A stretch of 64,000 nt of DNA from NCBI GenBank assembly GCA_023664865.1, contig JAMPEU010000006.1:62001-126000 (forward strand), written 5' to 3'. Made by a program: the position numbers and the translations under genes. The stretch comes from Butyrivibrio sp. (GTDB lineage: Bacteria > Bacillota > Clostridia > Lachnospirales > Lachnospiraceae). The notes beneath the pieces were generated by a model that did no database searches, was not told the DNA's origin, and was given only the letters and a program-made list of their open reading frames with translations. Positions 17,571-58,904 of the stretch are shown piece after piece. Within the stretch, counting starts at the first letter, position 1. Each line of letters opens with the position of its first letter.

Positions 17571-17654
17571 AGTTTAATCAATATGAACAAAAACGGAGCT
17601 CCAATGCCTGAAAAGCGGTAAGTCGCTCCTTATTTTGTTCATGTTGATTAAACT
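17571..17654 (-). repeat. Covarying hairpin element, copy 1
   Basis: 84-bp imperfect palindrome. In the orientation of the other copies it lies on the minus strand. The outer arms (AGTTTAATCA at 17571 with the complementary TGATTAAACT ending at 17654) enclose an inner GGAGC/GCTCC stem and a core at 17600-17624 read as GACTTACCGCTT, a pyrimidine, then TCAGGCATTGGA. It lies between the response regulator and ytvI-like genes and is antisense to both. Confidence 0.88.
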
Positions 17655-17685
17655 TATAACAAGTAATATATATGGGAGAGACAAT

Positions 17686-18735
17686 ATGAACGATTGGGGC
17701 AAAAATATATATAATACTATATTTGAAAAGAATAAACTGGTCAGGTTCACGGCAGTAACCTTACTGGTTTATCTTTTTTTTAAGTTTATTTTTTCCCTGA
17801 TTGCGCCTTTTTTTCTCGCATTTATCTTGATTACCCTGTTTTATCCGCTGCTGCAGCATATCCAGAAGAGAATCCCGACTAAGAAGAAATTTATCGCTGT
17901 CGGGGTGATATTGTTAATTCTGTCGTTTATCTCCGTAATATTTTGGATACTAGGATATAATAGCGGCGGACAGCTTGAAAATCTTACGGATTTCGTTGAA
18001 GAGGCATATGAGAAAATCCAGATGTTTCTCCATCGATGCTGTTATAGTTTAGACGGTAAATTCGGTTGGAATGGATATGAGATAGAGAATTTCATCATCG
18101 AAAGAATGGCTGTGATAATGGAAAACGTTCAGGTGCAAGTGCTGCCTAGCGTGATTTCGTCGTCATATACATGCTTTAAAGGGATTTTTGGCGCAGTGGC
18201 TTTTCTTTTTATTACGGCGATTGCCGCAGTCTTGATGGAAAAAGATTATAAGCCGTTTGTGGAGTGGCTTAAAACAGATGAAGACATATCGTTTATCTGG
18301 AAAACCCTGAAAGGCGTTCTGGACTATATAATCACATTTATAAAAGCGCAAGGGACGATAATGCTTATTATAATCGTGACATGCTGCGCTGTGCTATGGG
18401 CTGCGGGCATTAATGGCAGCATATGGTGGGGGATTCTTGCCGGCTGCCTTGACGTCCTTCCGTTTATCGGCACGGGGATAGTTTTGGTGCCGATAACGAT
18501 ATGGCAGCTTTTAAACGGTTATTATGTGGCAGCGGCAGTCTGCGTTATGCTTTATATTGCCTGTATTTTTATCCGCGAATTTCTGGAACCTAAGCTGATA
18601 GGGGACAGGCTCGGAATTGCGCCTGTGCTTATGATGCTTGGGATTTATGCGGGAATTAAGCTTTTCGGAATTGCGGGGATTATTGAGGGGCCGCTTGCGA
18701 TTATCGTCATATACCAGCTTTTAAAGGCGGAGTGA
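17686..18735 (+). CDS. ytvI: AI-2E family membrane protein, YtvI-like
   Basis: 349 residues from the ATG at 17686, preceded by GGGAGAG; a longer frame would start inside the repeat element. The layout is typical of the AI-2E/YtvI family: an N-terminal hairpin of two helices, a soluble segment (about 90-190), then a bundle with the conserved glycine-rich loop (GILAGCLDVLPFIGTGIVLVP) and the C-terminal EFLEPKLIGDRLGIAP motif. YtvI is a sporulation-associated integral membrane protein in Bacillus; its transported substrate, if any, is not known. Confidence 0.85.
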   Translation: MNDWGKNIYNTIFEKNKLVRFTAVTLLVYLFFKFIFSLIAPFFLAFILITLFYPLLQHIQKRIPTKKKFIAVGVILLILSFISVIFWILGYNSGGQLENLTDFVEEAYEKIQMFLHRCCYSLDGKFGWNGYEIENFIIERMAVIMENVQVQVLPSVISSSYTCFKGIFGAVAFLFITAIAAVLMEKDYKPFVEWLKTDEDISFIWKTLKGVLDYIITFIKAQGTIMLIIIVTCCAVLWAAGINGSIWWGILAGCLDVLPFIGTGIVLVPITIWQLLNGYYVAAAVCVMLYIACIFIREFLEPKLIGDRLGIAPVLMMLGIYAGIKLFGIAGIIEGPLAIIVIYQLLKAE

Positions 18736-18815
18736 AAAATGATAGGATTTGACGAAACGGCACGGACATTTTATAATAACAACATATATGTGGATTGTGT
18801 ATGATGTCATAGCGC

Positions 18816-20465
18816 ATGGCGGAGAGCATATTTCATTGTCACAAGAGTGTTGATTTAAAGGATATAACGATGGATAAAGGGATAAATTTAAAAGAAAAGC
18901 TGCTTAAGCAGACCAGGCAGGCACAAGATTATATGTTAGAGATATACTTTTTTATGCTTGTAGTAGTATATCCTTTTTTCATGAAAGACGGATACTTTGA
19001 AATAGGAGCGGCAAAATATTTCTTTTTCCGCAATGTAAGCCTTCTGATAATAGCGGTTATGACGCCGTTAGCGGTTGTGGCTTTTCTGTGCCGAAGGAGA
19101 CGGCATGAGAATTTAGTAAAATCATTTTCAGGGTATTTGAAGAAGCTGTCTGTCACGGACTGGTTTGTGTATGGATATTTTTTCATTGTGATTGTTTCAT
19201 ATCTGCTTACGCCATATAGGGACAAGGCGTTTCTGGGGGCGCAGGGCTGGTATATGGGGCTTGTGAGCCAGTTTATATTTGTATTAATATACCTTATGTT
19301 CTCAAGATGTTTTAAATGGGAGAATAATCTGCTTTATGCCGTGTTTATCAGTTCCGGGGTAGTGTTTCTTTTGGGTATTCTTAACAGATATTCCATATAT
19401 CCGATAAGTTTCAAAGTCAAGTCTCCGGAGTTTATCTCCACACTTGGAAATATTAACTGGTTTAGCGGATATTGGACTGTATTCGCGGCAATTGGGATTA
19501 TGTTTTATTGGAATGCCGGCGGAAGGGTTTTGCGGGCGGCAGCAGGCATATATGTTGTGATATGCTTTATATCGGGAATGACGCAGGGCAGCCAGAGCGC
19601 ATATATTGCGATTGTAATAATTTTAATGTTGTTGTTTTGGCTTTCGTTTCAAGCGAACCAGAAGATGTACCGTTTCTTGGAGATATGTGGATTGTTCGCA
19701 TTATCCGGGCAGATTGCCAGGCTGCTCAGATATGTGCCTGGGGCTTATATGAATTATGATGATGGGCTGGTAAAGGCATTTACGAATACCGGATTGACTT
19801 TATACATAGGAATAGGCATGATTGCGCTTTATCTGCTGTTTTATTATCTGGTGGAGCATAAAGGCATGCAGATATCAGACTATAAAGTTTTTCGCTGGGT
19901 GATGGTGATAGTGGCTGCCATAATATTGCTGACATATATTGCCCTTATAGCAGCCAATACCCATGCTGGTGGAGGAATAGCTTGGCTTGCAGATAAGCCC
20001 AATTTTGTATTCAATGACAAATGGGGTAATGCTCGCGGTGTTACATGGAGCGCAGGACTTTTGGCATATAAGAATATGACCCTGGTGCAGAAACTTGTAG
20101 GAGTGGGGCCGGACTGTTTTGCAGAATATGTATATACAATTCCTGCCTTGGCGGATCGTATCAATATAAGGTTTGGCGAATCCAGACTAACGAATGCCCA
20201 TAATGAATGGATTACGACACTGGTAAACTATGGCGCGCTGGGGTTTATATGTTATTTGGGGATTTTTATTTCCGCATTCAGCAGATTTATTAAAAAAGCG
20301 CCTGTAAAGACGGGGCTGTATCTGTGCGCGGCGGGAATATGTACATATGCCGTCCATAATATATTCAGTTTCCAACAGGTTCTTAATGCCCCCTTCGTCT
20401 TTTTGCTTATGGGAATCGGAGAGGGGCTTATTAGAGAAGAAAAAATAAATAATAATTTTCCCTAA
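18816..20465 (+). CDS. O-antigen ligase-like (Wzy/WaaL superfamily) membrane protein
   Basis: 549 residues with about ten to twelve hydrophobic helices and one large outside loop (about 395-465), the general layout of O-antigen ligases and polymerases. The start is uncertain: ATG 18816 and ATG 18870 (after AAAGGAT) are both possible. In Gram-positives these proteins polymerise or attach surface glycans, or attach sugars to surface proteins. It lies apart from the glycan genes at the left end. The substrate is not predictable. Confidence 0.75.
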   Translation: MAESIFHCHKSVDLKDITMDKGINLKEKLLKQTRQAQDYMLEIYFFMLVVVYPFFMKDGYFEIGAAKYFFFRNVSLLIIAVMTPLAVVAFLCRRRRHENLVKSFSGYLKKLSVTDWFVYGYFFIVIVSYLLTPYRDKAFLGAQGWYMGLVSQFIFVLIYLMFSRCFKWENNLLYAVFISSGVVFLLGILNRYSIYPISFKVKSPEFISTLGNINWFSGYWTVFAAIGIMFYWNAGGRVLRAAAGIYVVICFISGMTQGSQSAYIAIVIILMLLFWLSFQANQKMYRFLEICGLFALSGQIARLLRYVPGAYMNYDDGLVKAFTNTGLTLYIGIGMIALYLLFYYLVEHKGMQISDYKVFRWVMVIVAAIILLTYIALIAANTHAGGGIAWLADKPNFVFNDKWGNARGVTWSAGLLAYKNMTLVQKLVGVGPDCFAEYVYTIPALADRINIRFGESRLTNAHNEWITTLVNYGALGFICYLGIFISAFSRFIKKAPVKTGLYLCAAGICTYAVHNIFSFQQVLNAPFVFLLMGIGEGLIREEKINNNFP

Positions 20466-20536
20466 AATCTTGTAATAAGTACTGGTAAAAATTCTTTTTT
20501 TTATATACAATAAAAATGTATGAAATATCTAAAAAC

Positions 20537-20564
20537 AGTGATGATAGGACAGACGACCATCACT
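20537..20564 (+). other. Hairpin in the leader of the SAH hydrolase gene
   Basis: AGTGATG (20537-20543) pairs with CATCACT (20558-20564) around a 14-nt loop, about 50 bases before the start codon. It does not match the SAM or SAH riboswitch consensus known to me. Function unknown. Confidence 0.35.
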
Positions 20565-20615
20565 ATAATAAAAATTCGGCTGGTTTAATTACTATTTAAT
20601 TAAGGAGGAAATATC

Positions 20616-21863
<1,248 letters not shown>

Positions 21864-21890
21864 AAGTTGAACGCATTATTTTAACTGACA

Positions 21891-21923
21891 GAATCCCTCG
21901 TAAGCTTTTGCCACGGGGGATTC
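21891..21923 (+). terminator. Hairpin after SAH hydrolase gene
   Basis: GAATCCCTCG (21891-21900) pairs with CGGGGGATTC (21914-21923), one G-T pair. The sequence after it is only mildly T-rich, so it is a probable but not strong terminator. Confidence 0.55.
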
Positions 21924-21968
21924 TTAAGTCTATAGGAACTACAAATCAGAAAGGGGCAAAATTATAAA

Positions 21969-23744
21969 ATGAAGCCGCAAGATGAAACTGCATCAAAATA
22001 TAAGGCGGGAGAACTGCTTAAGAGATTTCTGCCTTATTATAAAAAATATTGGGTTATCGTAGTAATCGACTTATTCTGTGCAGGGCTTACGACGATATGC
22101 GAAATGGTTCTTCCCATGTTTATAAGGTACATTACCAATACGGGAATGAATGATTTGGCATCCCTGAGCGTGGGCATCATACTCCGTATGGGAGTCTTAT
22201 ATCTGTTTTTAAGGATAGTTGATTCGGCGGCGAATTTTTATATGGCGTATACGGGGCATGTAATGGGCACCCAGATTGAGACTGATATGCGGCGCGACGC
22301 ATACGCCCATTTGCAGAGCCTTTCCGATACATATTATAATAATACGAAAGTCGGACAGATAATGGGGCGGATTACCAACGATTTGTTTGACGTGACGGAA
22401 TTTTCACACCACTGTCCCGAAGAATTTTTTATCGCGGCTATTAAGGCTGTAATATCCTTTATTATCCTTTTAGGCATCAATGTATGGCTGACGCTGATTA
22501 TTTTTGCCATCGTGCCGGTTATGGTTATTACATGTACGGCAGTCAACCTTAAGCTGCGTGCCGCAATGCGCCAGCAGAGGATTCAGATTGGCGAATTAAA
22601 TGCGAGGATAGAAGACAGCCTGCTTGGACAGAAGGTAGTCAAGACATTTACCAATGAAGAAAAAGAAAAGGAGAAGTTTGAAGAAGATAACCAGAAATTT
22701 TATAGAATTAAAAAGAAATACTATAAATTTATGGCAGCGTTCCAGACTACCACAAGGGCGTTCGACGGGCTTATGTATCTGACTGTGCTGACGGCAGGCG
22801 GCATCTTCATGGTAAAAGGCATGGTTATGCCGGGCGATTTGGTTGCATATGTCATGTACGTTTCGACGCTGATTGCCACTATACGAAGGATTATTGAGTT
22901 TGCCGAGCAGTTCCAGCGCGGCATGACCGGAATTGAAAGATTTGTTGAGATTATGGATAGTGAAATTGAGATTTATGACGAGCCGGACGCAGTGCCGTGT
23001 GAGAACGTAAAGGGAGATATCTCTTTAAGAAATGTAAGCTTTGCTTATCCGGACGACCATAATATCGTGTTCCGGAATTTAAACCTGGATATCCATGCCG
23101 GAGAAAAAATCGCCATTGTCGGACCTTCCGGCGGCGGCAAAACCACACTCTGCAACCTGATTCCACGTTTCTATAATCTTGATGAAGGCGAGATTGTCCT
23201 GGATGGAAATAATATAAGGAAGTATACGTTGAAAAGCCTGCGCCGGAATATAGGCATGGTGCAGCAGGACGTGTACCTTTTTTCAGGAACTGTGTATGAG
23301 AATATTGCCTACGGCAAAGAAAATGCCACGATGGAAGAAGTAGTAGAGGCGGCGAAAAGGGCAGGCGCACATGAGTTTATAGAATTGCTAAAAAATGGGT
23401 ATAATACTTATGTAGGAGAACGCGGCGTGAAACTCTCAGGCGGACAGAAACAGAGAATCAGTATAGCCAGGGTATTCTTAAAAAATCCGCCGATTCTGAT
23501 TTTGGATGAAGCTACTTCGGCGTTGGATAACGAGAGTGAGTTTCAGGTGGCGAAATCCTTGCGCGAACTGGCGAAGGGAAGGACGACTATTACTATAGCG
23601 CACAGGCTTTCCAGTATCCGTAATTCTGACAGGATTCTGGTATTGACAGAGGACGGCATAGTGGAAGAAGGAAACCATGAACAGCTTCTTGAGAAGAAGG
23701 GAATATACTATAATTTCTACATAACGGCGAATGAACTTAAATAA
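21969..23744 (+). CDS. ABC transporter, fused permease and ATPase (multidrug/lipid exporter type)
   Basis: 591 residues. About six membrane helices occupy residues 25-320. The nucleotide-binding domain begins near 345, with Walker A GPSGGGKTT, signature LSGGQKQR, Walker B ILILDEATSALD and the AHR switch. It is a half-exporter with no partner gene next to it, so it is probably a homodimer. Family members export drugs, lipids or peptides; nothing here narrows the substrate. Confidence 0.9.
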   Translation: MKPQDETASKYKAGELLKRFLPYYKKYWVIVVIDLFCAGLTTICEMVLPMFIRYITNTGMNDLASLSVGIILRMGVLYLFLRIVDSAANFYMAYTGHVMGTQIETDMRRDAYAHLQSLSDTYYNNTKVGQIMGRITNDLFDVTEFSHHCPEEFFIAAIKAVISFIILLGINVWLTLIIFAIVPVMVITCTAVNLKLRAAMRQQRIQIGELNARIEDSLLGQKVVKTFTNEEKEKEKFEEDNQKFYRIKKKYYKFMAAFQTTTRAFDGLMYLTVLTAGGIFMVKGMVMPGDLVAYVMYVSTLIATIRRIIEFAEQFQRGMTGIERFVEIMDSEIEIYDEPDAVPCENVKGDISLRNVSFAYPDDHNIVFRNLNLDIHAGEKIAIVGPSGGGKTTLCNLIPRFYNLDEGEIVLDGNNIRKYTLKSLRRNIGMVQQDVYLFSGTVYENIAYGKENATMEEVVEAAKRAGAHEFIELLKNGYNTYVGERGVKLSGGQKQRISIARVFLKNPPILILDEATSALDNESEFQVAKSLRELAKGRTTITIAHRLSSIRNSDRILVLTEDGIVEEGNHEQLLEKKGIYYNFYITANELK

Positions 23745-23804
23745 AAAGCGCGTAACCGTTCAAAGAAGTAAATGCGCGACCTGTTGAATAGTTGTAAAAA
23801 ACGC

Positions 23805-23833
23805 TTACATTTAAAAAATTTTAATGTTAAAAT
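23805..23833 (+). promoter_or_regulatory. Sigma-A type promoter for the CarD-family gene
   Basis: TTACAT (23805-23810), 17-bp spacer, TAAAAT (23828-23833). It lies about 60 bases before the start codon. Confidence 0.65.
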
Positions 23834-23892
23834 AGTAGTATAGAAGCTTATTTATATAGAGTTGTTTGGTTTTAACATTAGGAGGAGATTGC

Positions 23893-24402
23893 ATGTTTGA
23901 AGTTGGCGAATTAATTATGTGTGGGGGACATGGAGTCTGCCGTGTTACGGCAATTACAGGTAATCCTATTGATAAACTTGATAAAAAGAAGAAATACTAC
24001 ATTCTTGAGCCTGTTTTTGAGAAGGGCAGCACCATTTATACCCCCGTGGATAATGATAAGATTGTCATGAGAAGGATAATGAGTGAAAAAGATGCGAAGA
24101 GTCTGATAGGTCAGATTCCCGATATTGAGACTGTTTGGATTAAAGAAGAGAAGACAAGGGAACAGATGTATAAAGAGGCAATCGGAACCTATGACTGCCA
24201 GAGCCTGGTACGGATTATTAAAACCCTGTATCTGCGTAAACAGGACAGAGTGCAGCAGGGGAAGAAAGTTCTTTCATCGGATGAGTTTTACTTAAAGAAG
24301 GCTGAGGAACTGCTTTACAGCGAGATGTCGCTTGCATTGTCCATCCCGCGGGAAAGCGTGGAAGAGTATATTGCGGATGAAATAAACAAAAATAGGAATT
24401 AA
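23893..24402 (+). CDS. CarD family transcriptional regulator
   Basis: 169 residues from the ATG at 23893, preceded by AGGAGGAG. The N-terminal Tudor-like RNA-polymerase-interacting domain reads FEVGELIMCGGHGVCRV to YTPVDN. The C-terminal helical part has the REQMYKEAI and LYLRKQDR segments usual in clostridial CarD proteins. Such proteins bind the RNA polymerase beta subunit and stabilise open complexes, rather than recognising specific operators. A bidirectional hairpin terminator follows. Confidence 0.88.
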   Translation: MFEVGELIMCGGHGVCRVTAITGNPIDKLDKKKKYYILEPVFEKGSTIYTPVDNDKIVMRRIMSEKDAKSLIGQIPDIETVWIKEEKTREQMYKEAIGTYDCQSLVRIIKTLYLRKQDRVQQGKKVLSSDEFYLKKAEELLYSEMSLALSIPRESVEEYIADEINKNRN

Positions 24403-24411
24403 TGTTATAAA

Positions 24412-24443
24412 ATAAAAGCGAAACTGAAAAGTTCCGCTTTTAT
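24412..24443. terminator. Bidirectional terminator between carD-like and comFB-like genes
   Basis: ATAAAAGCG (24412-24420) pairs with CGCTTTTAT (24435-24443), with a further inner AACT/AGTT stem and a GAAA loop. T-rich on both exits. It lies between convergent genes. Confidence 0.75.
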
Positions 24444-24489
24444 TTTAAGAAAGTATGTTTTTTAAATAGCACTGATATTTGTTATTTTA

Positions 24490-24846
24490 TTATTGCGCAG
24501 AATTATCAGAAGAAGATTCCTGCGCATCAGAAACAGGAGCGCTATCGGCAGAACCCTGAGCCGGCTGCCCATCTTTGGGTGGATGGTGCGGATGGCTTCC
24601 TATTATAGTTATAGCGGATACTACAGCGGTTGTAATCTCCGCATCTGTCTGAATGGAGGACGTATCGAAACGATGAAGGATGAGTCCCTTCGCTGTACGC
24701 GCATATTTAGGCTGCAATCGGTTTAGGGCATAAGTCGCCATGTCCAGCTTACAATCATTACATGAGCAAATATTAGGCATAGTGGGCAAAAGATGGTTAA
24801 GAGCCTGCTCCACATTGTCTTCCATCAGATTCTTTAGTCCTTCCAT
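24490..24846 (-). CDS. ComFB family protein
   Basis: 118 residues, ATG after GGAGGATT. It has the ComFB pattern: LKNLMEDNVEQALNHLLP, ICSCNDCKLDMATYALNRL and PKYARTAKG, with close cysteines (CSCNDC) able to bind zinc. In cyanobacteria ComFB-domain proteins bind c-di-GMP; in Bacillus comFB lies in a competence operon. The last 35 residues are a low-complexity tail rich in Ser, Asp, Gln and Pro. It stands alone here, and its ligand is unproven in this lineage. Confidence 0.82.
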   Translation of the reverse strand: MEGLKNLMEDNVEQALNHLLPTMPNICSCNDCKLDMATYALNRLQPKYARTAKGLILHRFDTSSIQTDAEITTAVVSAITIIGSHPHHPPKDGQPAQGSADSAPVSDAQESSSDNSAQ

Positions 24847-24988
24847 TGTAAATCCTCCATAGGTAAATTTATCAGTAATGTTTAATCAATATAATATAAA
24901 CATACCGATATATATACTATGTTATAACTTTTTTTAATTATAATCAATATTAAAATTAAAACAAATGTATATTTTTAATAGTTTTTTA

Positions 24989-25017
24989 TTGACCTTTTTG
25001 AAAAATATGGTTATATT
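24989..25017 (+). promoter_or_regulatory. Sigma-A type promoter for the efflux permease gene
   Basis: TTGACC (24989-24994), 17-bp spacer, TATATT (25012-25017), about 50 bases before the start codon. The rest of the 24847-25068 gap is AT-rich and shows no gene. Confidence 0.7.
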
Positions 25018-25068
25018 TATACAATCCGTATAGGAATATTAGCTAAAAATGTAGAAAAGAGAGTGTAT

Positions 25069-25923
25069 ATGTTTGAAATTATTTTAGATACTTTGTTGGA
25101 TAGCATAAGATTATTACCTTTTTTATTTCTGACTTATCTTGCGATGGAATATTTGGAGCATAAGGCGGGTGAGCGGCTGCAAAGCATAATTCGTAAATCA
25201 GGTAAATGCGGTCCGCTGATAGGCAGCCTTCTGGGAGTCTTCCCGCAGTGCGGATTTTCTGCTGCTGCGTCTAATTTTTATGCAGGAAGAATTATAACGA
25301 TTGGCACGCTGATTTCGATTTACCTTGCCACATCAGACGAAATGCTTCCGATTTTGATTTCCGAGAACGCAGGAATGGGAATGATATTGAAGATATTAGG
25401 CGCGAAGGTGATAATCGGTACGATTGCCGGCATGATAATTGATGTTGTGGCAAACCGCTTTTTCTATAAAAAGGAAAGAAAGCCGGAGATAGAGCATCTG
25501 TGTGAACAGCATCACTGCCATTGTGAAGAAGGCATTCTTAAGTCAGCGCTGCATCATACGCTGGAAATATTTATTTATCTGCTGATAGTTTCATTTATAT
25601 TGAATATATTGATTGCCATAATTGGCGAAGATTTTCTGGCAAGCCTCGTTTTAAACCGTGTGGTTATAGGAGAATTGCTTGCGGGAGTAATCGGGCTTAT
25701 TCCCAACTGTGCGGCGTCCGTCATTATTACGCAGCTTTATCTAAAGGGCATACTAAACGCGGGCGCAATGATGTCCGGGCTGCTTGTCGGCGCGGGAGTC
25801 GGCATCATCGTATTGCTGCGAGTGAATGACAGACCTAAAGAAAATGCCGTAATTATATCCTTGTTGTATGTGGTCGGCGTTGCTGCAGGGATTGTGGTTG
25901 AGCTGATGGGGGTTGTTTTTTAA
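25069..25923 (+). CDS. Putative arsenic/manganese efflux permease (ArsP_2/DUF2899 type)
   Basis: 284 residues with about eight hydrophobic helices. Two halves carry matching motifs: GVFPQCGFSAAASNFYAGR in the first and GLIPNCAASVIITQLYLKG in the second, an internal duplication with a cysteine in each. A His/Cys-rich cytoplasmic loop (HLCEQHHCHCEE, about residues 143-155) separates them, which suggests metal binding. Annotators call this family arsenic efflux or putative manganese transporter; the substrate is not established. The ATG at 25069 is preferred to a GTG two codons before. Confidence 0.78.
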   Translation: MFEIILDTLLDSIRLLPFLFLTYLAMEYLEHKAGERLQSIIRKSGKCGPLIGSLLGVFPQCGFSAAASNFYAGRIITIGTLISIYLATSDEMLPILISENAGMGMILKILGAKVIIGTIAGMIIDVVANRFFYKKERKPEIEHLCEQHHCHCEEGILKSALHHTLEIFIYLLIVSFILNILIAIIGEDFLASLVLNRVVIGELLAGVIGLIPNCAASVIITQLYLKGILNAGAMMSGLLVGAGVGIIVLLRVNDRPKENAVIISLLYVVGVAAGIVVELMGVVF

Positions 25924-25936
25924 GGGTTAAGAAGCT

Positions 25937-26431: not shown

Positions 26432-26508
26432 TTTATTTCTCCTGAAGTTGCTTTAAATACTGATTTGCACAGTTATTATGATAGCATAGGGGTGGGTATA
26501 TGGTATAT

Positions 26509-27075: not shown

Positions 27076-27146
27076 ATATGTAATTGCTCCTTGCGTACGA
27101 TGTTGGAAATCATGTTTGTAATGCGTAAATCATTAGCAGGCATAAA

Positions 27147-33376: not shown

Positions 33377-33462
33377 GAGCTTAGCCCAAATGAAGAAAAT
33401 AAGGGGCGACTTACCGCTTTTCAGGCATTGGAGCCCCGTTTTTCTTCATTTGGGCTAAGCTC
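33377..33462 (+). repeat. Covarying hairpin element, copy 2
   Basis: 86-bp nearly perfect palindrome. The outer arms GAGCTTAGCCCAAATGAAG and CTTCATTTGGGCTAAGCTC enclose an inner GGGGC/GCCCC stem (33403-33407 and 33433-33437) and the conserved core at 33408-33432 (GACTTACCGCTT, T, TCAGGCATTGGA). Compared with copies 1 and 3, the inner stem has G-C where they have A-T, and the outer arm has other compensatory changes. It lies between two minus-strand genes. Confidence 0.9.
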
Positions 33463-35082: not shown

Positions 35083-35155
35083 TGCGCCTTCAGGGGCTCG
35101 AACCCTGGACACCCTGATTAAGAGTCAGGTGCTCTACCAACTGAGCTAAAGGCGC
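35083..35155 (-). tRNA. tRNA-Lys (anticodon CUU)
   Basis: Cloverleaf on the minus strand: acceptor GCGCCTT/AAGGCGC with discriminator A, D-arm AGCTCAGTTGGTAGAGC, anticodon arm CCTGA-CTCTTAA-TCAGG (anticodon CTT) and T-arm GGGTTCGAGCCC. The 3' CCA is not encoded and must be added afterwards. The gene stands alone with its own terminator. Confidence 0.96.
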
Positions 35156-48386: not shown

Positions 48387-48402
48387 TAGAGGGGAAATAT
48401 AT

Positions 48403-48879: not shown

Positions 48880-48895
48880 AGCAAAACCCTCTGTT
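48859..48895. terminator. Bidirectional terminator between fliS and the giant flagellin
   Basis: Perfect 15-bp stem AACAGAGGGTTTTGC (48859-48873) and GCAAAACCCTCTGTT (48881-48895) with a 7-nt loop, followed by Ts on the plus strand and by TTTTCC on the minus strand. The left arm is part of the fliS coding region. Confidence 0.95.
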
Positions 48896-48905
48896 TTTTA
48901 ATGAA

Positions 48906-51900: not shown

Positions 51901-52796
51901 TCAAGTGTTATTTCAATATACTGGGAAACTCCTTCGCTTTCAGCATAAAAACCAAGCACATCATTATTTCCTCTGGAAATGGGCAGAGTCTCGCCGGGAC
52001 CAAAACCTGTAGTGCCAAGCAGGGTAGCGGATGAAACTCCTGTTTTAAAATCGTAAATAAGATACGCAAGAGAGCCATCTATGAAATCAATCATTGTCGG
52101 CTTGCCATCAGCATTTTCAAAATTCAAATTACAATAACCGTTGCTTGTGTATTCAAACACAAACCCCGGATTAGCTGGTGACATTTTATGTAGGGCGTCG
52201 TCTATTTCATCTATTAACTCCTGCGTAGTATATGTGCCTGCCGGAACTGTAATCGTATAGTCTTTTGGCACATACCCATCAGGCAGATGAATGTTTAATT
52301 CATTTGTTGACTCGGTAATCGTATGAAGCTGATTATCATTCCACTGTCTGTTTCCACAAATCTGATAATAGGAAGGCTCATGTTCTTCAAATACTGGTTG
52401 TTCATTAAATGAAGTATTGCTGTTAATACGATCAATTTCCGTGCGCAGCTGGTCAAATTCGGCATTTAATGCAGCACGGTCGCTTATAGTACAGAGTCCG
52501 TCCGCCGATTTGAGCGATAACTCGTTCATCCGCTGTAACATATCATGTATTTCCGACATAGCTCCGTCAGCAATCTGGAGGAAAGCAACGCCATCTTTTG
52601 CGTTGTTGGTTCCCTGCATAAGCCCTCTAATTTGTCTCCGCATGGTTTCGGACATGGCTAGCCCTACAGGATTGCCTGCCGCAAGGTTTATCTTATAACC
52701 GGAAGAAACTTTTTCCGAGGATTTTGCATGTGCACTGATATTAGAGTTGACGATTCGATTTAGATTCATTGCGTCCAGATTGCGAGAAATAATCAT
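48906..52796 (-). CDS. Giant flagellin (about 1296 residues)
   Basis: Start at 52796 (MIISRNLDAMNLN), after AAGGAGG. The N-terminal D0/D1 (KVSSGYKINLAAGNPVGLAMSETMRRQ, AMSEIHDMLQRMNEL) and the C-terminal D1/D0 (STYGAMQNRLEHTINN, IRYSNLSVLLQAGQNMIAQSN) are intact. About 1000 residues lie between them, some three to four times the usual flagellin, formed by repeated beta-rich segments of similar style (ITVPAGTYTTQELIDEI, KFRVNGSQDITINF with SYSVSKIVSDI, TITLPAGEYKDGI, RYTFPEDTYYTADELIDWL). That pattern suggests five or more related domains on the filament surface. A good sigma-D promoter lies upstream. Confidence 0.9.
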   Translation of the reverse strand: MIISRNLDAMNLNRIVNSNISAHAKSSEKVSSGYKINLAAGNPVGLAMSETMRRQIRGLMQGTNNAKDGVAFLQIADGAMSEIHDMLQRMNELSLKSADGLCTISDRAALNAEFDQLRTEIDRINSNTSFNEQPVFEEHEPSYYQICGNRQWNDNQLHTITESTNELNIHLPDGYVPKDYTITVPAGTYTTQELIDEIDDALHKMSPANPGFVFEYTSNGYCNLNFENADGKPTMIDFIDGSLAYLIYDFKTGVSSATLLGTTGFGPGETLPISRGNNDVLGFYAESEGVSQYIEITLEPKAYTYDDMFNALKSKLNEAAKKDDTSLAADIKVETYEANGKKFIQLTSEEDVSITGLKGNMFRYEVSGNSYHSVFYDNTIYGECTKTAASITGNPYDDKYPIIITNNNNSLKFRVNGSQDITINFDSGSYSVSKIVSDINEKLKDLGVDGEVVASGSTSLTLTSKLTGPESSLDFQSFFNTENPDIYKNTYDTLFCFTSGEATVKPGQPLSLTGAAALNGKISLSDKPLIFYVDDDKYEFTNIKDDYDDLKTLLEKLNAIADDKGINDKIKFVSYNGCLQIISISSDVSSITIDEADKNDTYQKLFTEERTNSVEGSVSSQGGGAYSNSPQGNLGITNEPALATASYCKQNINIDSTNNIITISLTHNSQNIENIEIHLNNGSYSLGQLAAEIKKHSAIQANNIQVSCSGDNITFIYAKPVNTIITDGDRWSIAASGSAWDAILRKETKTEPVEHETTPENKATLTSFSGIPDNIIIDSNNNTLNLELDMYGTKISGKIIIPENILDDADTTNDSYTRQTLLDALKEQISQCNELKDIGITVSYDSSNRLVFTAPGGTLQEGCATGNFYSEVMCRAEGAKKEPSNGSSELAPIPRIIGRADLTKESIEIIKGTNDQLTFDFTYPGSKEPLVMTITLPAGEYKDGIALFGDKDQPNQNLINDIERQIAEYDKNDPYYEEIQKLFGKDGCFDLNFSIGAPEGENNTNAANSVDASALQIYATLRDGADVSELSAGQYILDGVRGSAAPFVFYKTTSLPTASYIIGTKNVMNGVTIETGKNVLTLSVNDVPYRYTFPEDTYYTADELIDWLNDKFENGDDSGNPAPLEASLENGAVKISHKLLGANKITNVGGSARSTIFFEEDGRDSRDPLVLQVGAEQRSTIELPRISVSSCSLGINSLTLSQMKYADKAIERIKEAIHKLNAKRSTYGAMQNRLEHTINNNENVTEKVQETESGIRDTDIATEMIRYSNLSVLLQAGQNMIAQSNQRIEKLLTILQ

Positions 52797-52856
52797 AATT
52801 GCCTCCTTGACTTCGATTCGCAAGTATTAATCATATACTATAAAATAGCATATATT

Positions 52857-52884
52857 ATATCGGACGCTTCATCTAAAAAGTTTA
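52857..52884 (-). promoter_or_regulatory. Sigma-D (sigma-28) promoter of the giant flagellin gene
   Basis: On the minus strand TAAA (52884-52881), 16-bp spacer, TCCGATAT (52864-52857). This matches the flagellar-class pattern TAAA-N15/16-GCCGATAA closely. The -35 TAAA includes the stop codon of the DUF2508 gene. The start codon is about 60 bases downstream. Confidence 0.78.
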
Positions 52885-53133
52885 GGTTTCTTCAAGCAGT
52901 AAACCGTCCTTTTCAGCCTGCTCCAACAGATACTTATATCTTTTCATAATGGAATTTAATTCATAGATATAGCAGTCTATCAAATCCGGATCGGTCACGT
53001 AATCGAAACCGCTGTATGCAATTTCCAAAGCACGTCTTGTCTGAACCAGTTCCTCCCTTATAGATGGTTTATGAAGCTCCAATATGTCTTCTGTATTAAT
53101 CTGGTCGGATTTTTGATGAAATAAAATCTTCAT
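52882..53133 (-). CDS. DUF2508 family protein (YaaL-like)
   Basis: 83 residues, ATG after GAAAGGAGC. It has the DUF2508 pattern: IREELVQTRRALEIAYSGFDYVTDPDLIDCYIYELNSIMKRYKYLLEQ. In Bacillus the YaaL protein is encoded next to bofA, and the BofA-like gene here is close by but on the other strand. Function unknown. The flagellin promoter overlaps its stop codon. Confidence 0.8.
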   Translation of the reverse strand: MKILFHQKSDQINTEDILELHKPSIREELVQTRRALEIAYSGFDYVTDPDLIDCYIYELNSIMKRYKYLLEQAEKDGLLLEET

Positions 53134-53331
53134 ATCAAAACCAATGCTCCTTTCATGCCGACGGATTTGCTTAAAATATAATCCTTCTCTTAATAGTATA
53201 GTCGCGATATAGGAAAAATATTCCAGTTATATTATTGGAACGCAATGAATATAGATTAGTAAAAAGGTTGACAAGTTTGTGCAAGCAGGATTGCATTAAG
53301 CTTTACGGCAGGGAAGGGCGGATATATAGCC

Positions 53332-53604
53332 ATGGAAAAAATGGGCAGTATGGCGGCTATTTTGGGCGTGTGTGTTCTGGTGCTGGTAATCGGCGCATTT
53401 GGCAGAAAAATAGAGTGGATTATTAACTTTGTCCTGCGTGCCGTGTTGGGGACTATAGGGATTTATTTTCTAAATAATTTTCTGCTTTCAAGTAATATTT
53501 TAGTCACGGTAGGCATTAATCCGATGACTGTTTTGACATCCGGAATCCTAGGATTTCCGGGGCTTGTAGTGCTTTACGGCATCAATTTTTTTAAAATATT
53601 GTAG
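53332..53604 (+). CDS. bofA: BofA-like pro-sigma-K processing inhibitor family protein
   Basis: 90 residues with three hydrophobic segments; the start lies about 10 bases after GGGAAGGGCGG. The C-terminal block INPMTVLTSGILGFPGLVVLYGINFF is the BofA family signature. In Bacillus BofA holds the SpoIVFB protease inactive until the forespore signal arrives. Many anaerobic Clostridia carry bofA even when sporulation is doubtful, so this alone does not prove endospore formation. Confidence 0.88.
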   Translation: MEKMGSMAAILGVCVLVLVIGAFGRKIEWIINFVLRAVLGTIGIYFLNNFLLSSNILVTVGINPMTVLTSGILGFPGLVVLYGINFFKIL

Positions 53605-53640
53605 ATTTTTCACAAAAAAATATTTTTTTGTAAAAAACTC

Positions 53641-53669
53641 TGGACAAGATTAATTAAGGCATATATAAT
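53641..53669 (+). promoter_or_regulatory. Sigma-A type promoter of the Tad locus
   Basis: TGGACA (53641-53646), 17-bp spacer, TATAAT (53664-53669). It lies about 110 bases before the first Tad gene. Confidence 0.75.
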
Positions 53670-53776
53670 ACGACTTACAACTCATGAATTCACATCATTT
53701 AATCTGCATCTGCAGATATCGGGAAGTATCTTCCAATGATTTCGTTGAGTAGACTTTAAGGCAGAGGAGGTGTTTT

Positions 53777-54310
53777 ATTGGACTGATTTATTTTTATTAC
53801 ATTTTAATTCTATTGCTCATCGTGGCAGTCTTTATGGATTTTAAGTATGACAGAATACCTAATGCGCTGATTGCAATCGGACTATGCGCAGGCTCTTTAT
53901 TCCGTTTCATGGACGGCGGCTTGCCGGGCATAGCAGATGCCGCAGTGGTAATACTTATTTCTTTCTGTCTTTTATATCCTATATATCGGCTTGGCGGCCT
54001 GGGCGGCGGTGATGTAAAACTTTTTCTTATGACGGGAAGTTTTTTCACGGCGCACATGCAGTTTCGCATCATGATATATTCTTTTATTACCGGAGCTTTA
54101 ATATCCATTTTAAAGATAATATCGGAAAAGAACTTTAGGGAAAGAATGAAGTATCTGTGTTCTTATCTGTTTGACGTTATGTACACGGGGCAATGGAAAC
54201 TGTATGGAGAGAATCTTAAGTGGGATTCTAATGAAGACAAGAGGAATAAAATACATTTTGCATTACCGATTTATTTTGGTGTAATGCTCGGATTAGGAGG
54301 GATGCTTTGA
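53777..54310 (+). CDS. Prepilin peptidase, A24 family (TadV/CpaA-like), first of two
   Basis: About 177 residues with several membrane helices and the aspartyl pair of A24 peptidases: the first Asp in FMDFKYDRIPNALI, and GGGDVKLF for the GxGD motif. It should cleave the leader of the Flp pilin. The start is unusual. A strong AGAGGAGGT lies at 53763-53771, but the in-frame codons after it are ATT (53777) and CTG (53783). The next standard candidate, TTG 53813, has no ribosome site and would remove most of the first membrane helix. Confidence 0.8.
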   Translation: MGLIYFYYILILLLIVAVFMDFKYDRIPNALIAIGLCAGSLFRFMDGGLPGIADAAVVILISFCLLYPIYRLGGLGGGDVKLFLMTGSFFTAHMQFRIMIYSFITGALISILKIISEKNFRERMKYLCSYLFDVMYTGQWKLYGENLKWDSNEDKRNKIHFALPIYFGVMLGLGGML

Positions 54311-55323
54311 AACACAAAATTTTTGCGGTCTGCGATTTGGAAGAGACTTACGCGTTTCGTATGGCGGAGTACATAACGGACAGGATATCCATGCCGTATA
54401 TCCTGCACCTTTTTACCAAAACAGAAGAATTGCAGCCGTTTTTAGACAGAGAGGAAATTAACGTTTTACTGATTGGCGAGGGCGCATTAAAACAGGTAAA
54501 GGTAAGGCCGGATATAACGCAGACCTTTGTACTTTATGAAGGAAAACTCGACGGCTTGCAGACGGACTATAAATACATAAATAAATATCAGAATCCGGAA
54601 CAGATAGTTTCTGAGGTATTGGAGCAGGTCACGGAGCTTGAAGGCTGGAGCGGCAAGAGTACGGCTCAGGACTTGAAAATGAAAATTATCGGAATATATT
54701 CTCCGGTAAAAAGATGCCTCCAGACCACATTTGCCCTTACCATGGGACAGCTGCTTGCGCGCGAACATAAGGCTCTATACCTTAACTTTGAGAGTTATTC
54801 GGGTTTTGGCAGGATGCTCCATAGGGATTTTGCGGCTGATATGATGGACATGGTCTATTATTTTAACTGCGCTAAGGAAAAACTGTCTACCAGACTGCCG
54901 TCCATAGTGCAAAACATTAACGGGCTGGATTATATTCCGCCGGGAGAGACCAATCTCGATATGCAGGGGATTTCGGGCGACAAATGGGTGGAACTCATAG
55001 AAACAATAGGCAAAATAAGCGACTATGAATATCTGATTCTGGATTTGACGGACGGAATGAGCGGGCTTTTTGAGCTGATGGCACGCTGCAGCAAAATATA
55101 TACGATTATAAAAGACGACAGTTTTGCAATGGCGAAGATGGAACAGTATGAGAAAATCTTGCGGTTAAACGAAATGGATGAGATTGCAGAAAAAACAGTG
55201 AAATGCCGATTCCCGTTTTTTGAAAGGCTGCCGTCGGATTTGAATCTAATGACGCACGGAGAGCTTGCCGGATATGTCAAAGCAATCATACAGGGTGATT
55301 TATATGAAAACAAGACAGGCTGA
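54307..55323 (+). CDS. TadZ/CpaE-like pilus assembly protein (MinD/ParA relative)
   Basis: 338 residues; the TTG start after GGAGGGATGC overlaps the previous stop. An N-terminal receiver-like segment (about 1-110) is followed by a ParA/MinD-type domain in which the Walker A is not canonical (IIGIYSPVKRCLQTTFAL), while the strand LILDLTDG is kept. TadZ proteins place the Tad secretion machine at the cell pole. Position directly before the TadA/CpaF ATPase supports this. Confidence 0.8.
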   Translation: MKHKIFAVCDLEETYAFRMAEYITDRISMPYILHLFTKTEELQPFLDREEINVLLIGEGALKQVKVRPDITQTFVLYEGKLDGLQTDYKYINKYQNPEQIVSEVLEQVTELEGWSGKSTAQDLKMKIIGIYSPVKRCLQTTFALTMGQLLAREHKALYLNFESYSGFGRMLHRDFAADMMDMVYYFNCAKEKLSTRLPSIVQNINGLDYIPPGETNLDMQGISGDKWVELIETIGKISDYEYLILDLTDGMSGLFELMARCSKIYTIIKDDSFAMAKMEQYEKILRLNEMDEIAEKTVKCRFPFFERLPSDLNLMTHGELAGYVKAIIQGDLYENKTG

Positions 55324-56539
55324 AACCAGAAAAGAATTGAGGGAGACGCTTGCGGCGAGTATAGATTATTCCAAAGAAATGTCGGATGAAGAAATCAAGG
55401 AGCTTATTGACGAGCTGCTTATCAGGGAAGGGAAAAAGCGTTCCATGCCGCTTGCCGAGAAGGAAAGCCTTAGGAAAGAACTCTTTCATGCTGTGAGAAA
55501 ATTAGACGTTCTGCAGGCGCTTATCGATGATGCTGAGATTACAGAAATAATGATTAACGGAGCGGAAGAAATTTTTATCGAGAAAAAGGGCAGGTTAATT
55601 CATTCTGACTTGAAATTTGAAAGTAGGGAAAAATTAATCGACGTAATCCAGCAGATAGTGGCGGAGTGCAACAGGGTTGTCAATGAAGCCTCGCCGATTG
55701 TGGATGCGAGGCTGAAAAACGGAGCAAGAGTCAATGTGGTCTTAAATCCGATAGCCCTGAACGGTCCGATTGTCACGATAAGGAGATTTCCGGATAAGCC
55801 TATTACCATGGAAGACTTGATTTCATTCGGTTCCGTTCCGGCAGAGGTGTGCGCCTGGTTAGAGAATCTGGTCAGGGCGGGATACAATATTTTTATCAGC
55901 GGCGGAACCGGCTCCGGCAAGACTACCTTCCTAAACGCACTGTCTAATTATATCCCGAAGGAAGAAAGAATTATTACCATTGAGGACAGCGCTGAACTGC
56001 AGATTTTGAATGTCCCTAATATAGTCAGACTGGAAACAAGGAATGCAAATGTGGAAGGCTGTAGGGAGATTACGATTCGCGAGCTGATTAAATCGTCTCT
56101 TAGAATGAGGCCTGACAGGATAATAGTCGGCGAGGTCAGGGGCGGCGAGGCGTTTGATATGATGCAGTGTCTGAATACAGGGCATGACGGCTCCATGTCC
56201 ACAGGACATGCCAACAGCTCCAAAGACATGCTTTACAGGCTGGAAAATATGATTTTGATGGGAATGGATTTGCCGCTTAACGCAATAAAACAGCAGATTG
56301 CTTCAGGGATTGATATAATAATTCACCTTGGACGGCTTAGGGATAAATCCAGAAAGGTTTTAGAAATCGTGGAAGTTCTTGGCTTTGAGGATAGTGAAAT
56401 CAAATTAAACACACTCTATCGCTTTGAAGAGGATGGTGAGAGCGCAGATGGAAGAGTATTAGGACGGCTGCATAAAAAAGGAGAACTCAGCTATGTTGAA
56501 AAACTTAGAAACGCAGGAATACAGACGGAATGGAATTGA
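55304..56539 (+). CDS. tadA: Tad secretion ATPase TadA/CpaF
   Basis: 411 residues from the ATG at 55304, overlapping the tadZ-like end. It belongs to the type II/IV secretion ATPase family: Walker A ISGGTGSGKTTFLNAL near residue 203, the Asp box (IEDSAELQI), Walker B-like DRIIVGEVRGGEAFDM, and the His box TGHDGSMSTGHANS. It powers assembly of the Flp pilus at the inner face of the membrane. Confidence 0.95.
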   Translation: MKTRQAETRKELRETLAASIDYSKEMSDEEIKELIDELLIREGKKRSMPLAEKESLRKELFHAVRKLDVLQALIDDAEITEIMINGAEEIFIEKKGRLIHSDLKFESREKLIDVIQQIVAECNRVVNEASPIVDARLKNGARVNVVLNPIALNGPIVTIRRFPDKPITMEDLISFGSVPAEVCAWLENLVRAGYNIFISGGTGSGKTTFLNALSNYIPKEERIITIEDSAELQILNVPNIVRLETRNANVEGCREITIRELIKSSLRMRPDRIIVGEVRGGEAFDMMQCLNTGHDGSMSTGHANSSKDMLYRLENMILMGMDLPLNAIKQQIASGIDIIIHLGRLRDKSRKVLEIVEVLGFEDSEIKLNTLYRFEEDGESADGRVLGRLHKKGELSYVEKLRNAGIQTEWN

Positions 56540-57272
56540 CTATGAAAAATATGCTTTAAGCGGCAGAGAATGGATAACGTGTTTGGTTGAAGCTATATTG
56601 CTTTTGGCTGTAATAGGATATTTTTTCTATCGCTCCGTCTGGGCATGCCTTATTTTATCTCCGCTTATCATTATTTTCTTTAAGGAGAAGAGAAAAGAGC
56701 TTAATAAGAGCAGGAAACAGGAACTTAATGTACAGTTTAAAGACATGGTATTGTCAGTGTCGGCGAACCAGCGGGCAGGATATTCCGTGGAGAACTCATT
56801 TCGGGAAGCATATAGGGATATGGCGATGCTATACGGAAGTGAAAGCTATATCTGCCATGAAATCGACCATATTGTGAAGGGTTTGGATAATAACATCACA
56901 CTGGAAAGGCTTTTGTATGATTTGGGAGCAAGAAGCCATGTGCCTGACATTATGCAGTTTGCCGATGTCTTTATGATTGCCAAGCGAAGCGGCGGGAACA
57001 TGACGGAGATTTTGGCGCAGACGGCGGATGCCATTGAGCAGAAAATCGCTGTAGATAAGGAAATACAGGTTATGGTAAGCGCTAAGAAAATGGAACAGAA
57101 GATTATGAATGTAGTTCCGTTTCTAATAATTATCTACATAGAAATGACATCGAAGGGATTTTTTGATGCGCTTTATCATAATCTGACGGGAATCATTGTT
57201 ATGACGGTCTGTCTTGCCTTATATCTTGCGGCGTTTATGATTTCTAAGAAATTGGTTGAGATAGAAGTTTAG
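56493..57272 (+). CDS. tadB: Tad inner-membrane platform protein TadB
   Basis: 259 residues; ATG after AAAGGAGAA, inside the end of tadA. Two hydrophobic helices near 33-70, then a T2SSF domain (DMVLSVSANQRAGYSVENSF, ADVFMIAKRSGGNMTEIL) and two C-terminal helices. It forms the membrane base on which TadA acts, together with the TadC-like protein encoded next. Confidence 0.9.
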   Translation: MLKNLETQEYRRNGIDYEKYALSGREWITCLVEAILLLAVIGYFFYRSVWACLILSPLIIIFFKEKRKELNKSRKQELNVQFKDMVLSVSANQRAGYSVENSFREAYRDMAMLYGSESYICHEIDHIVKGLDNNITLERLLYDLGARSHVPDIMQFADVFMIAKRSGGNMTEILAQTADAIEQKIAVDKEIQVMVSAKKMEQKIMNVVPFLIIIYIEMTSKGFFDALYHNLTGIIVMTVCLALYLAAFMISKKLVEIEV

Positions 57273-57304
57273 ATGGACAGGCTGCATAAGAATGGGGGAT
57301 TATT

Positions 57305-58813
57305 ATGATTTATGTATATCTTGTTGTTTTGGTTTTGTTCCTTATACTGTTTATGGCATCACGAACGGAAAATGCGGCTGAGTATATGAAACAGGGGGAA
57401 GAAAAGCCGAAAGCATGGGAGAAATATTTTATAAAGGCAGCTATATGGTGTATAAGGCAGAAGGAGAAATTTTTAAGAAAAAGCATAGGCAAAGGTGTAG
57501 GAAGAAGTTGGAGAAGTAAAGAGCAAATCCAAAAAGGCAAACTCGGAAAGGACTTAAAGCTCCTGCATCCGTCACGGTCTGAGAAATATCAGGTAAATGA
57601 GTTTTACATAAAGCAGTATTCGACTACCCTGTTGGTGCTTTTTGTAGGAAATATTCTTTCGCTATGCGCAGCGGTAAGCGCGCAGACAGGCGGATTAATT
57701 AAAGAAGGAAATTATATTAACAGAAAAAGCTATGGACAGGGCGGTACGGAAGTGGCGTTGACGGCTGAGATAGAAGGAAATGAACCCGAAAGCATTACTT
57801 ATACCGTGGAAGAGCAAAAATACACGCATGAGGAGATTGAACTGCTTCATCAGCAATTTGTAGAAGACCTTCCCCAAATCATAAAAGGGGATAACGAAAG
57901 CTTAGAGGCGGTAACAAATAACCTTAATCTGGCAGCCGAAATAGAGGGTTATCCTTTCAAAATAGAATGGGAGAGTAGTAGCTATGCCATTATCCATACT
58001 GACGGAGAAGTTAATAATAGGGAGTTGGAAGAGGCGGAAATAGTGACTTTGCGGGCGATACTGCGATATGACGGGATAGAATATGAAGAAATCTTTCCGG
58101 TTCAGGTACAACCGGCGGTTCTTACCAGAGAGGAACAATTATTACAGAGCATTGAAACTTCTTTGGAAGAACAAAATCAGGCGAGCAGAACAGGCGGCGT
58201 CATGATATTGCCGGATAATATAGAGAACAAAAATGTTATCTGGAAGGAGGTGATTGAAGACAACAGCGGATATTTTTTTCTTCTTATGTGCGCCGCTTCT
58301 ATACTGATATTTTTTTCTAAAGTGAAGGACGTAGAGAAGGATTTAGAGAAACGTAAAAAAGAATTATTGCTGGATTATCCGGAAGTGGTTAGCAAAATAA
58401 CGCTGTATATGGGCGCGGGATTGTCCGTTAGAAAAACTTTCTACAAGATGGGGGAGGATTATAAAAGAAAAGGAAATTCAGATAAAAAAAGATATGCTTA
58501 TGAGGAAATCCTGCTGCTTGTAAACGAGCTGCAGAGCGGTATTTCGGAGACGGAAGCGTATGCCCATTTGGGAAAGAGGTGTCAGCTGCAGCCCTATATG
58601 AAACTGGGCGCGTTATTAGCACAGAACATACGGAAAGGCAGTAACGATATGCTTATGATGCTGCGTCAGGAAGCGGCGAGCGCATTTGAAGAAAGGAAAA
58701 ACACCGCCAGAAGGCTGGGAGAAGAAGCCGGAACCAAACTTCTCATGCCAATGATGATGATGCTCTGTATCGTCATGGTGATTATAATGTTTCCGGCGTT
58801 CTGTTCATTTTAG
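57305..58813 (+). CDS. tadC: TadC-like platform protein with a large extracytoplasmic insert
   Basis: 502 residues, ATG after GGGGGATT. The C-terminal half is T2SSF (VSKITLYMGAGLSVRKTFYKM, GTKLLMPMMMMLCIV). A first helix at the start, a basic stretch, and a helix near 98-120 precede about 190 residues of non-membrane sequence (about 125-315) before the next helix at about 318-338. The insert contains an Ig-like phrase (FKIEWESSSYAIIHTDGEV, then TLRAILRYDGIEYEEIFPVQVQP), like an atrophied bacterial Ig domain. Ordinary TadC has no such insert, so this may contact the cell wall or the growing pilus. Confidence 0.8.
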   Translation: MIYVYLVVLVLFLILFMASRTENAAEYMKQGEEKPKAWEKYFIKAAIWCIRQKEKFLRKSIGKGVGRSWRSKEQIQKGKLGKDLKLLHPSRSEKYQVNEFYIKQYSTTLLVLFVGNILSLCAAVSAQTGGLIKEGNYINRKSYGQGGTEVALTAEIEGNEPESITYTVEEQKYTHEEIELLHQQFVEDLPQIIKGDNESLEAVTNNLNLAAEIEGYPFKIEWESSSYAIIHTDGEVNNRELEEAEIVTLRAILRYDGIEYEEIFPVQVQPAVLTREEQLLQSIETSLEEQNQASRTGGVMILPDNIENKNVIWKEVIEDNSGYFFLLMCAASILIFFSKVKDVEKDLEKRKKELLLDYPEVVSKITLYMGAGLSVRKTFYKMGEDYKRKGNSDKKRYAYEEILLLVNELQSGISETEAYAHLGKRCQLQPYMKLGALLAQNIRKGSNDMLMMLRQEAASAFEERKNTARRLGEEAGTKLLMPMMMMLCIVMVIIMFPAFCSF

Positions 58814-58820
58814 AAGTACG

Positions 58821-58904
58821 AGTTTAGGCAAAATGAATAAAATAAGGAGCGACTTACCGCTTCTCAGGCATTGGAGCTCCGTTTTTATTCATTTTGACTA
58901 AACT
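58821..58904 (+). repeat. Covarying hairpin element, copy 3
   Basis: 84-bp imperfect palindrome with AGTTTAGGCAAAATGAATAAAA and its near-complement, an inner GGAGC/GCTCC stem (58846-58850 and 58876-58880), and the core at 58851-58875 (GACTTACCGCTT, C, TCAGGCATTGGA). It lies between the tadC and flp genes, inside an otherwise tight operon. Confidence 0.9.

Follow-up and report, generated by a model that had tools for sequence, protein, structure and literature searches.

The BOX, RUP, and SPRITE repeats of Streptococcus pneumoniae are described in one account (PMC3049150) as hairpin-forming, intergenic sequences present in 30-125 copies per genome and read as parasitic elements resembling miniature inverted-repeat transposable elements (MITEs), with about half of the insertion sites common to strains and with SPRITE being terminator-like and located near gene 3' ends. 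ERIC, YPAL, Correia, and other small mobile sequences are presented in parts of their literature (PMC2229807, PMC10969869) as non-autonomous elements that lie between genes and give rise to transcripts with secondary structure. The element analysed here is a hairpin that occurs three times in a 64,000-nucleotide stretch of a Butyrivibrio sp. genome (assembly GCA_023664865.1, contig JAMPEU010000006.1, positions 62,001 to 126,000 of the forward strand; hereafter the window), and it is very probably a non-autonomous mobile element of Lachnospiraceae, that is, a MITE moved in trans by an IS1182-like transposase. The MITE family is new and ordinary in kind; what is unusual is that its hairpin is favoured on one strand and that its ends are common to other structured elements. 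No description of the repeat was found in the open-licence PubMed Central literature, its sequence strings included. The original prediction, made from the letters of the window, had offered three identities, of which the mobile hairpin similar to repetitive extragenic palindromic (REP) sequences or MITEs is the one supported, in its MITE form, while a recombinase site and a structured RNA acting as a host riboregulator gained no support.

The genome of the window (G000, a 3.82-Mb draft in 180 contigs) contains, over its whole length, 85 matches to the hairpin core at up to three mismatches, against none for a reversed-pattern control, and 100 matches to a degenerate core at up to two mismatches; the family, first proposed from three copies, thus extends to 85-100 dispersed copies, far above chance. 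At least five additional G000 copies carry different tips (L320, L331, L336, L346, and L354). The length of 84-86 bp first assigned to the element is too short: intact copies measure 142-150 bp and are bounded by terminal inverted repeats (TIRs; TAGRYAATTGCRAAACTC...GAGTTTYGCAATTRYCTA), often with target duplications of about 10 bp. Specifically, the intact layout comprises an 18-bp TIR, a left flank AATAACCAGA and a right flank TCGTGAC, palindromic arms about 21 bp long, a 4-5-bp inner stem, and the tip. Small size, lack of coding capacity, and many dispersed copies are features of MITEs, as are the intact TIR pairs that occur in several species. The TIR consensus matches G000 88 times at up to three mismatches, compared with 14 times for the reversed control, and bounds 15 elements of 68-235 bp among those listed, four of which belong to the hairpin family (143-150 bp). 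The other TIR-bounded elements listed are eight hairpins of a second family, 205-235 bp long (L306, L307, L313, L317, L322, L324, L330, and L334), and three short elements of 68-89 bp (L310, L315, and L333). Since these different elements have the same terminal repeats, one kind of end carries several structured cargoes. Across 36 TIR-bounded elements and insertion sequences (ISs), a set in which one L254 place appears twice, once with each of two left ends, and in which two L345 rows are doubtful, the flanks match each other with a mean of 0.80 versus 0.56 for permuted pairs, and a match of at least 0.88 is reached by 15 of the 36 versus 1.6% of the permuted controls. Clear duplications surround L254, L260, L126, and L352 in the hairpin family and L199, L200, L293, and L313 among the other TIR-bounded elements. 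A TA target duplication, first considered from the ends, was replaced by the duplications of about 10 bp.

The same ends also bound ISs. A scan of viral contigs for the end sequence returned eight stretches, two of which (L390 and L393) have facing ends that delimit 1,796 and 1,767 bp and hold proteins of 485 and 507 residues, while in a third (L388) a single end accompanies a related frame that is truncated where the contig stops. Relatives with at most two end mismatches are present on plasmids of Butyrivibrio proteoclasticus B316 (pCY360; L394) and Roseburia sp. 831b (L395) and, at the same tolerance, in a further IMG/VR contig (L398), giving five ISs of 1.75-1.80 kb with both ends (L390, L393, L394, L395, and L398), none of them from the G000 record. 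In a profile search limited to the L390, L393, and L388 proteins, DUF772 scores above its cut-off in all three; the other ISs are 62-70% identical to L388 or L393. Target duplications are clear in three of the five ISs (L390, L394, and L398). The original prediction had counted a match to an IS-derived family against itself, and this has come true in part, as the ends match those of IS1182-like ISs. Two further outcomes that it had named as refuting, a genome-wide search yielding only the three copies and covariation without statistical support, did not materialise.

Comparison with relatives reveals insertion sites with and without the element. Twelve TIR-bounded G000 insertions were queried against G020, a sister species of the same genus, and six of the nine sites that were compared are empty there, with at most eight extra bases, three of the six belonging to the hairpin family (L320, L326, and L331); the other three compared sites have 29-51 other bases in G020, one with element remnants. 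Moreover, four relatives (G020, G068, G010, and G097) lack the third window copy in the corresponding gap, so that the empty sites sought by the original prediction do exist. At the site of the first copy, G020 has only an arm-like remnant and G010 and G068 have no copy, and at the site of the second, all that is left in G020 is the right arm and flank; because of these remnants, loss in G020 is the better reading for copies 1 and 2. Among the 26 copies of G020, 11 lie at a site shared with a G000 copy examined.

The distribution of the family is wide and uneven. Across 61 genomes (G000 and 60 relatives), the G000 core is found only in G000 and G020, the latter with 23 matches. The search designated R1 gives hits in 15 of 77 genus genomes, G000 included, from 1 to at least 47 per genome, and the search designated R2 gives hits in 10 of 299 family genomes, G000 among them. 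Inspection of loci supports the element in six other genera (G230, G246, G251, G256, G283, and G299), and in G256 and G246 the hairpin is flanked by similar outer ends; among the nine other genera with R2 hits, those of G263 and G175 have the look of chance and that of G275 is uncertain. The Lachnospiraceae genus represented by G256 has 16 scored matches, many equal in score, with loci L343 and L352 near full length, and is a good place for catching recent movement. A related tip, GAYTTGCCACCGCATCGGAR, occurs in 40 stretches of named genome contigs, mostly from Lachnospiraceae and Acetatifactor metagenome-assembled genomes and including strain 1XD8-76 and Lachnoclostridium sp. An14; by eye, 36 of the 40 have palindromic arms, L224 has the right side only, and L229, L230, and L248 have none. 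In Lachnoclostridium sp. An14, a near-threshold Clostridiales-1 RNA match (L241:2214-2322, 45.2 versus 48 bits) lies about 2 kb from the hairpin. Viral contigs contain no G000 core and three matches to the common tip, without arms, while element L254 has no match in plasmids and L319 none in phages. Within G000, L078 and L082 consist of three and two tandem partial copies at a spacing of about 80 bp, and L101 and L102, on contigs C36 and C125, are 87% identical across 2.7 kb and each hold, between convergent genes, a copy with quite different arms. This identity between contigs indicates that the draft probably mixes strains or species, so the copy numbers may be somewhat inflated.

The hairpin was characterized in two alignments. 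In the G000 alignment (A1; 77 of 87 core matches, nested-palindrome copies and tandem repeats being left out), the arms (21 pairs) and the inner stem (five pairs) show two-sided change in 24 of 26 pairs, 96.3% of the cells pair, and none of 500 shuffles reaches any of these measures, which gives strong statistical support to the covariation first noticed in three copies. In the cross-species alignment (A2; 71 of 76 rows, tips longer than 26 nt and contig-cut ends being excluded from the 76), two-sided changes occur in 25 of 28 pairs, and 91.2% of the cells are paired versus 41-52% in slid controls, the tip helix being the weakest part (70.9% paired); here too, the measures are not attained in any of 500 shuffles. 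The 25-nt core regarded as fixed is so in the window copies and is not universal: it holds in the G000/G020 species pair alone, and not in every copy, a 24-nt form being present in G000 and the tips of related species being GACTTACCGCTTTTCAGGCAT(T)GGA, GACTTGCCACCGCATCGGA, GATTTCGCTTGCGGTGA, GACCTTCGCTCCYGCGGTTCGA, and others. What is nearly constant across species is the pattern Y-GA-N...N'-GA-R, in which GA opposite GA is the pattern of tandem sheared G-A pairs, next to a closing Y-R pair (C-G, T-A, or T-G) in 173 of 181 elements. The GA...GA tip is present in 26 of 27 loci from 14 genomes, with the exception of L124, whose tip begins AA, and also in the six other genera, while the core-selected G000 copy L048 has a tip beginning GG. 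Because the finders behind the A2 rows, the count of distances to stop codons given below, the 181-element set, which includes some chance hairpins by their tips, and the more strictly filtered set of 170 demanded GA...GA, its near-invariance is drawn from the 27 loci and the core-selected copies only. The third tip pair is seen as C-G, A-T, and G-C and is unpaired in 19 of the 71 aligned rows, and A/T tracts adjoin the inner stem. As a separate observation, G000 has 17 occurrences of a nearly perfect palindrome of 27 bp, CAGATAATTTACGAAGTAAATTTTCTG; in the 15 loci listed (L291, L296-L298, L300, L302-L305; L292-L295, L299, L301), it is embedded in a hairpin arm, either of the present family or of the second TIR-bounded one, and is apparently one more small mobile palindrome that comes to lie in such arms.

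Compensatory change around an unchanged loop had been taken to mean selection on structure, a conclusion that the sites shared by G000 and G020 do not favour. The arms were compared at nine of the 11 shared sites, two being left out for a nested palindrome in one arm, and L058/L185, which is out of register, does not enter the counts. Four pairs of elements with the same arms show nine one-sided and no two-sided changes, and in four others, whose flanks are 82-97% identical, there are 10 one-sided changes and 16 two-sided ones, 13 of the latter keeping a pair in both elements; two-sided changes are therefore confined to pairs whose arms differ as a block, a pattern that fits homogenisation or replacement of arms better than slow compensation one position at a time and suggests that much of the covariation stems from conversion, template switching, or re-insertion. 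One shared site has the element inverted between G000 (L017) and G020 (L175), with flanks 93-97% identical. Template switching between the arms of inverted repeats reportedly homogenises the arms and inverts spacers. An account of the covariation without any selection, in which these processes alone keep the arms alike, is compatible with the MITE interpretation and has not quite an even chance of being right: the block-wise or absent two-sided changes (seven in one element) and the inverted element fit it, but the one-strand excess of G-T over A-C mismatches described below, the near-invariant GA...GA, and the third tip pair in its three forms are left unexplained, and three two-sided changes in L079/L178 do not preserve pairing.

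The hairpin is indeed not symmetrical between strands. Among 170 elements, mismatches on the strand here called plus are G-T in 96 cases and A-C in 43 (p 8e-6, with copies treated as independent), and the plus-strand fold is the more stable in 154 of 181 elements. The occurrence in both orientations to genes, claimed for the window, is correct for the strands of those copies, but the family is biased: between co-directional genes, in the species sampled, the plus strand is antisense in 74 copies and sense in 29. Gene contexts derive from simple open reading frame (ORF) calls, and an ORF of at least 70 codons spans 14 of the 87 G000 copies. The G-T to A-C counts are alike in the two contexts, 40:17 where the plus strand is antisense and 17:7 where it is sense. 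A favoured strand that is independent of the direction of the neighbouring gene suggests that the plus-strand hairpin matters to the element itself, and it is unlike the expectation for a cis-acting element of host mRNAs. In agreement with this, it is improbable that the hairpin is a structured RNA or a 3' end element in the service of the host (an mRNA stabiliser, a bidirectional terminator, or a protein-bound regulator) copied around the genome, although strong covariation, the near-invariant tandem GA beside the Y-R pair, the A/T tracts beside the inner stem, and the closeness to stop codons (no more than 30 nt away on the right in 38 of 46 G000 cases) would suit such a function. Turnover is fast, with only 11 of 26 sites shared between species whose flanks are about 82-97% alike; 62 of the 77 genus genomes have no R1 hit at the threshold used; the favoured strand does not change with the direction of the neighbouring genes and is, between co-directional genes, mostly antisense; the few loci inspected have mixed neighbour genes; and a simple terminator scan at the third window copy flags just a 5-bp stem on the minus strand. 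Stop-codon targeting as such is not claimed, because operon gaps are short, and a host function for the hairpin is not supported. As originally stated, the hairpin matches no riboswitch or ribozyme: it has no Rfam family at gathering score, where tRNAs are the only hits, and at E values up to 1 the matches overlapping it are microRNA models far below their cut-offs.

A different explanation of the strand preference, which we consider unlikely but less so than a host RNA, is that the plus-strand hairpin is a strand-specific RNA or single-stranded DNA structure needed by the IS1182-like transposase or its mRNA; the hairpin would then be akin to sequence that the parent IS has near the stop codon of its transposase, and the MITEs would consist of ends plus hairpin. 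This proposal stems from the context-independent strand preference, the GA...GA tip, and the presence of GACTTACC at or near the stop codon in three of the five ISs. The eight letters of GACTTACC are those with which the G000 tip begins, and their strand with respect to the ends is the same in both; the sequence lies directly 3' of the transposase stop in L393 and L394, 14 nt further on in L390, and is not present in L395 and L398. Its sharing by the stop-codon region and the hairpin tip is suggestive only.

Several observations weigh against a MITE moved by an IS1182-like transposase. Clear end sequence on both sides (scores of at least 24 on the left and 22 on the right, against shuffled means of 14.5 and 12.8) is retained by just four of 87 G000 copies and by none of the three window copies in recognisable form, and several MITE copies, e.g., L042 and L315, lack a target duplication, among them two of the six insertions with an empty site (L042/L326 and L315). 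Of the three queried sites outside the comparison, L306 and L334 look occupied in G020 too, their flanks there being separated by about 170 and 225 bases, in the case of L334 by the TIR-bounded element L383. As for the ISs, two of the five (L393, also listed as L396, and L395) have no target duplication, none was found in the G000 stretches examined, although the whole G000 genome was not searched for them, and the L390, L393, and L388 proteins reach 68.4-69.1 bits with the IS1182 model (NCBIfam NF033551) versus a cut-off of 270, which is why they are named IS1182-like. Lastly, the strand preference is without demonstrated cause. The mobile-element interpretation is well supported up to the transposase, whose part in it is inferred. 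In the proposed mechanism, an IS1182-like transposase would act in trans on the ends of the element, and insertion would leave target duplications of about 10 bp; surviving copies would lie mostly in intergenic gaps, often near stop codons, and would later decay through loss of ends, partial deletion of palindromes, block-wise replacement of arms, and occasional flipping of orientation. The plus-strand hairpin, as single-stranded DNA or transposase-sense RNA, may be kept because it aids spread or persistence.

Other ways of moving such a sequence fit less well. The palindromic, intergenic, and high-copy nature of the hairpin recalls REP elements moved by a REP-associated tyrosine transposase (RAYT), an identity that is barely credible here: no Y1 transposase (PF01797) is detected in G000 or G020 at 1e-5, and this domain is found in seven of the 15 genus carriers as well as in 22 of the 62 genomes without hits. 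TIRs and target duplications are not known as REP features. Integron sites lie near stop codons and have a folded strand that is mostly antisense, as is the case here, but the copies are scattered across contigs and not in cassette arrays, and conserved TIRs with target duplications indicate transposition, which makes a folded recombination site of the attC type or another recombinase target very improbable. Mobilisation by an IS630/Tc1 transposase, as proposed for RUP, was rejected, DDE_3 (PF13358) being found in none of 13 carrier genomes at 1e-5. A composite element between close copies was likewise set aside; contig C76 has arginine-pathway-like genes, named from their translations, between two copies.

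The three window copies are confirmed in coordinates, strands, core, and stem and arm variants, and they are decayed elements without recognisable ends, so their membership in the family rests on the hairpin. Copy 1 occupies positions 17571-17654 of the minus strand, with outer arms, the inner stem GGAGC/GCTCC, and the tip (the 25-nt core) at 17600-17624, in the gap that separates the genes of a response regulator and an AI-2E-type transporter. Copy 2 (33377-33462, plus strand; tip, again the 25-nt core, at 33408-33432) has the inner stem GGGGC/GCCCC and preserves the flanks TAACCA and GTGCCAGCA. Copy 3 (58821-58904, plus strand; tip at 58851-58875, with C as the variable pyrimidine of the 25-nt core) begins 7 bp past the stop codon of the ORF at 57305-58813, which the original prediction assigned to a Tad operon, and is followed by the next ribosome-binding site. 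With a covariance model built from 77 copies, all three window copies being among the training rows, they score 110.8, 127.6, and 110.9 bits, respectively. The matches of R1 and R2 at 24392-24461 (E 0.025-2) are weak and are not counted, and a tRNA gene on the minus strand (35083-35155) is the only Rfam match of the window at gathering level.

The MITE interpretation explains a recurrent, structured, and strongly covarying repeat in Lachnospiraceae of the gut, one that could pass for a riboswitch-like RNA in covariation screens, and identifies the IS that likely mobilises it. It also provides a case in which covariation alone is no proof of selection on RNA, while the remaining strand-specific signal is testable. 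If the hairpin did belong to the transposition machinery, it would represent a structured cofactor for a DDE insertion sequence, equivalent in a DDE transposon to what structured non-coding regions are in IS200/IS605 or IS110 elements. Set beside BOX, RUP, and SPRITE by their description in PMC3049150, without comparison of sequences, the family is similarly a set of small interspersed hairpin repeats in a Firmicute. It differs from what is described of them in that an IS with the same ends is found, the GA...GA tip is near-invariant, and one strand is favoured. The elements grouped with ERIC, YPAL, and Correia, as far as they are described, have other hosts and ends, and the target duplication is here about 10 bp. 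ERIC and Correia make short TA duplications. With respect to the IS1182-like ISs of the IS5 superfamily, such as that of pCY360, the family differs in that those ISs have a transposase gene and no comparable long arm pair is conspicuous when their non-coding ends are folded, and it is alike in the ends themselves, such as TAGGCGTTTGCGAAACGCC and GAGTTTCGCAATTACCTA, on which the same transposase may act.

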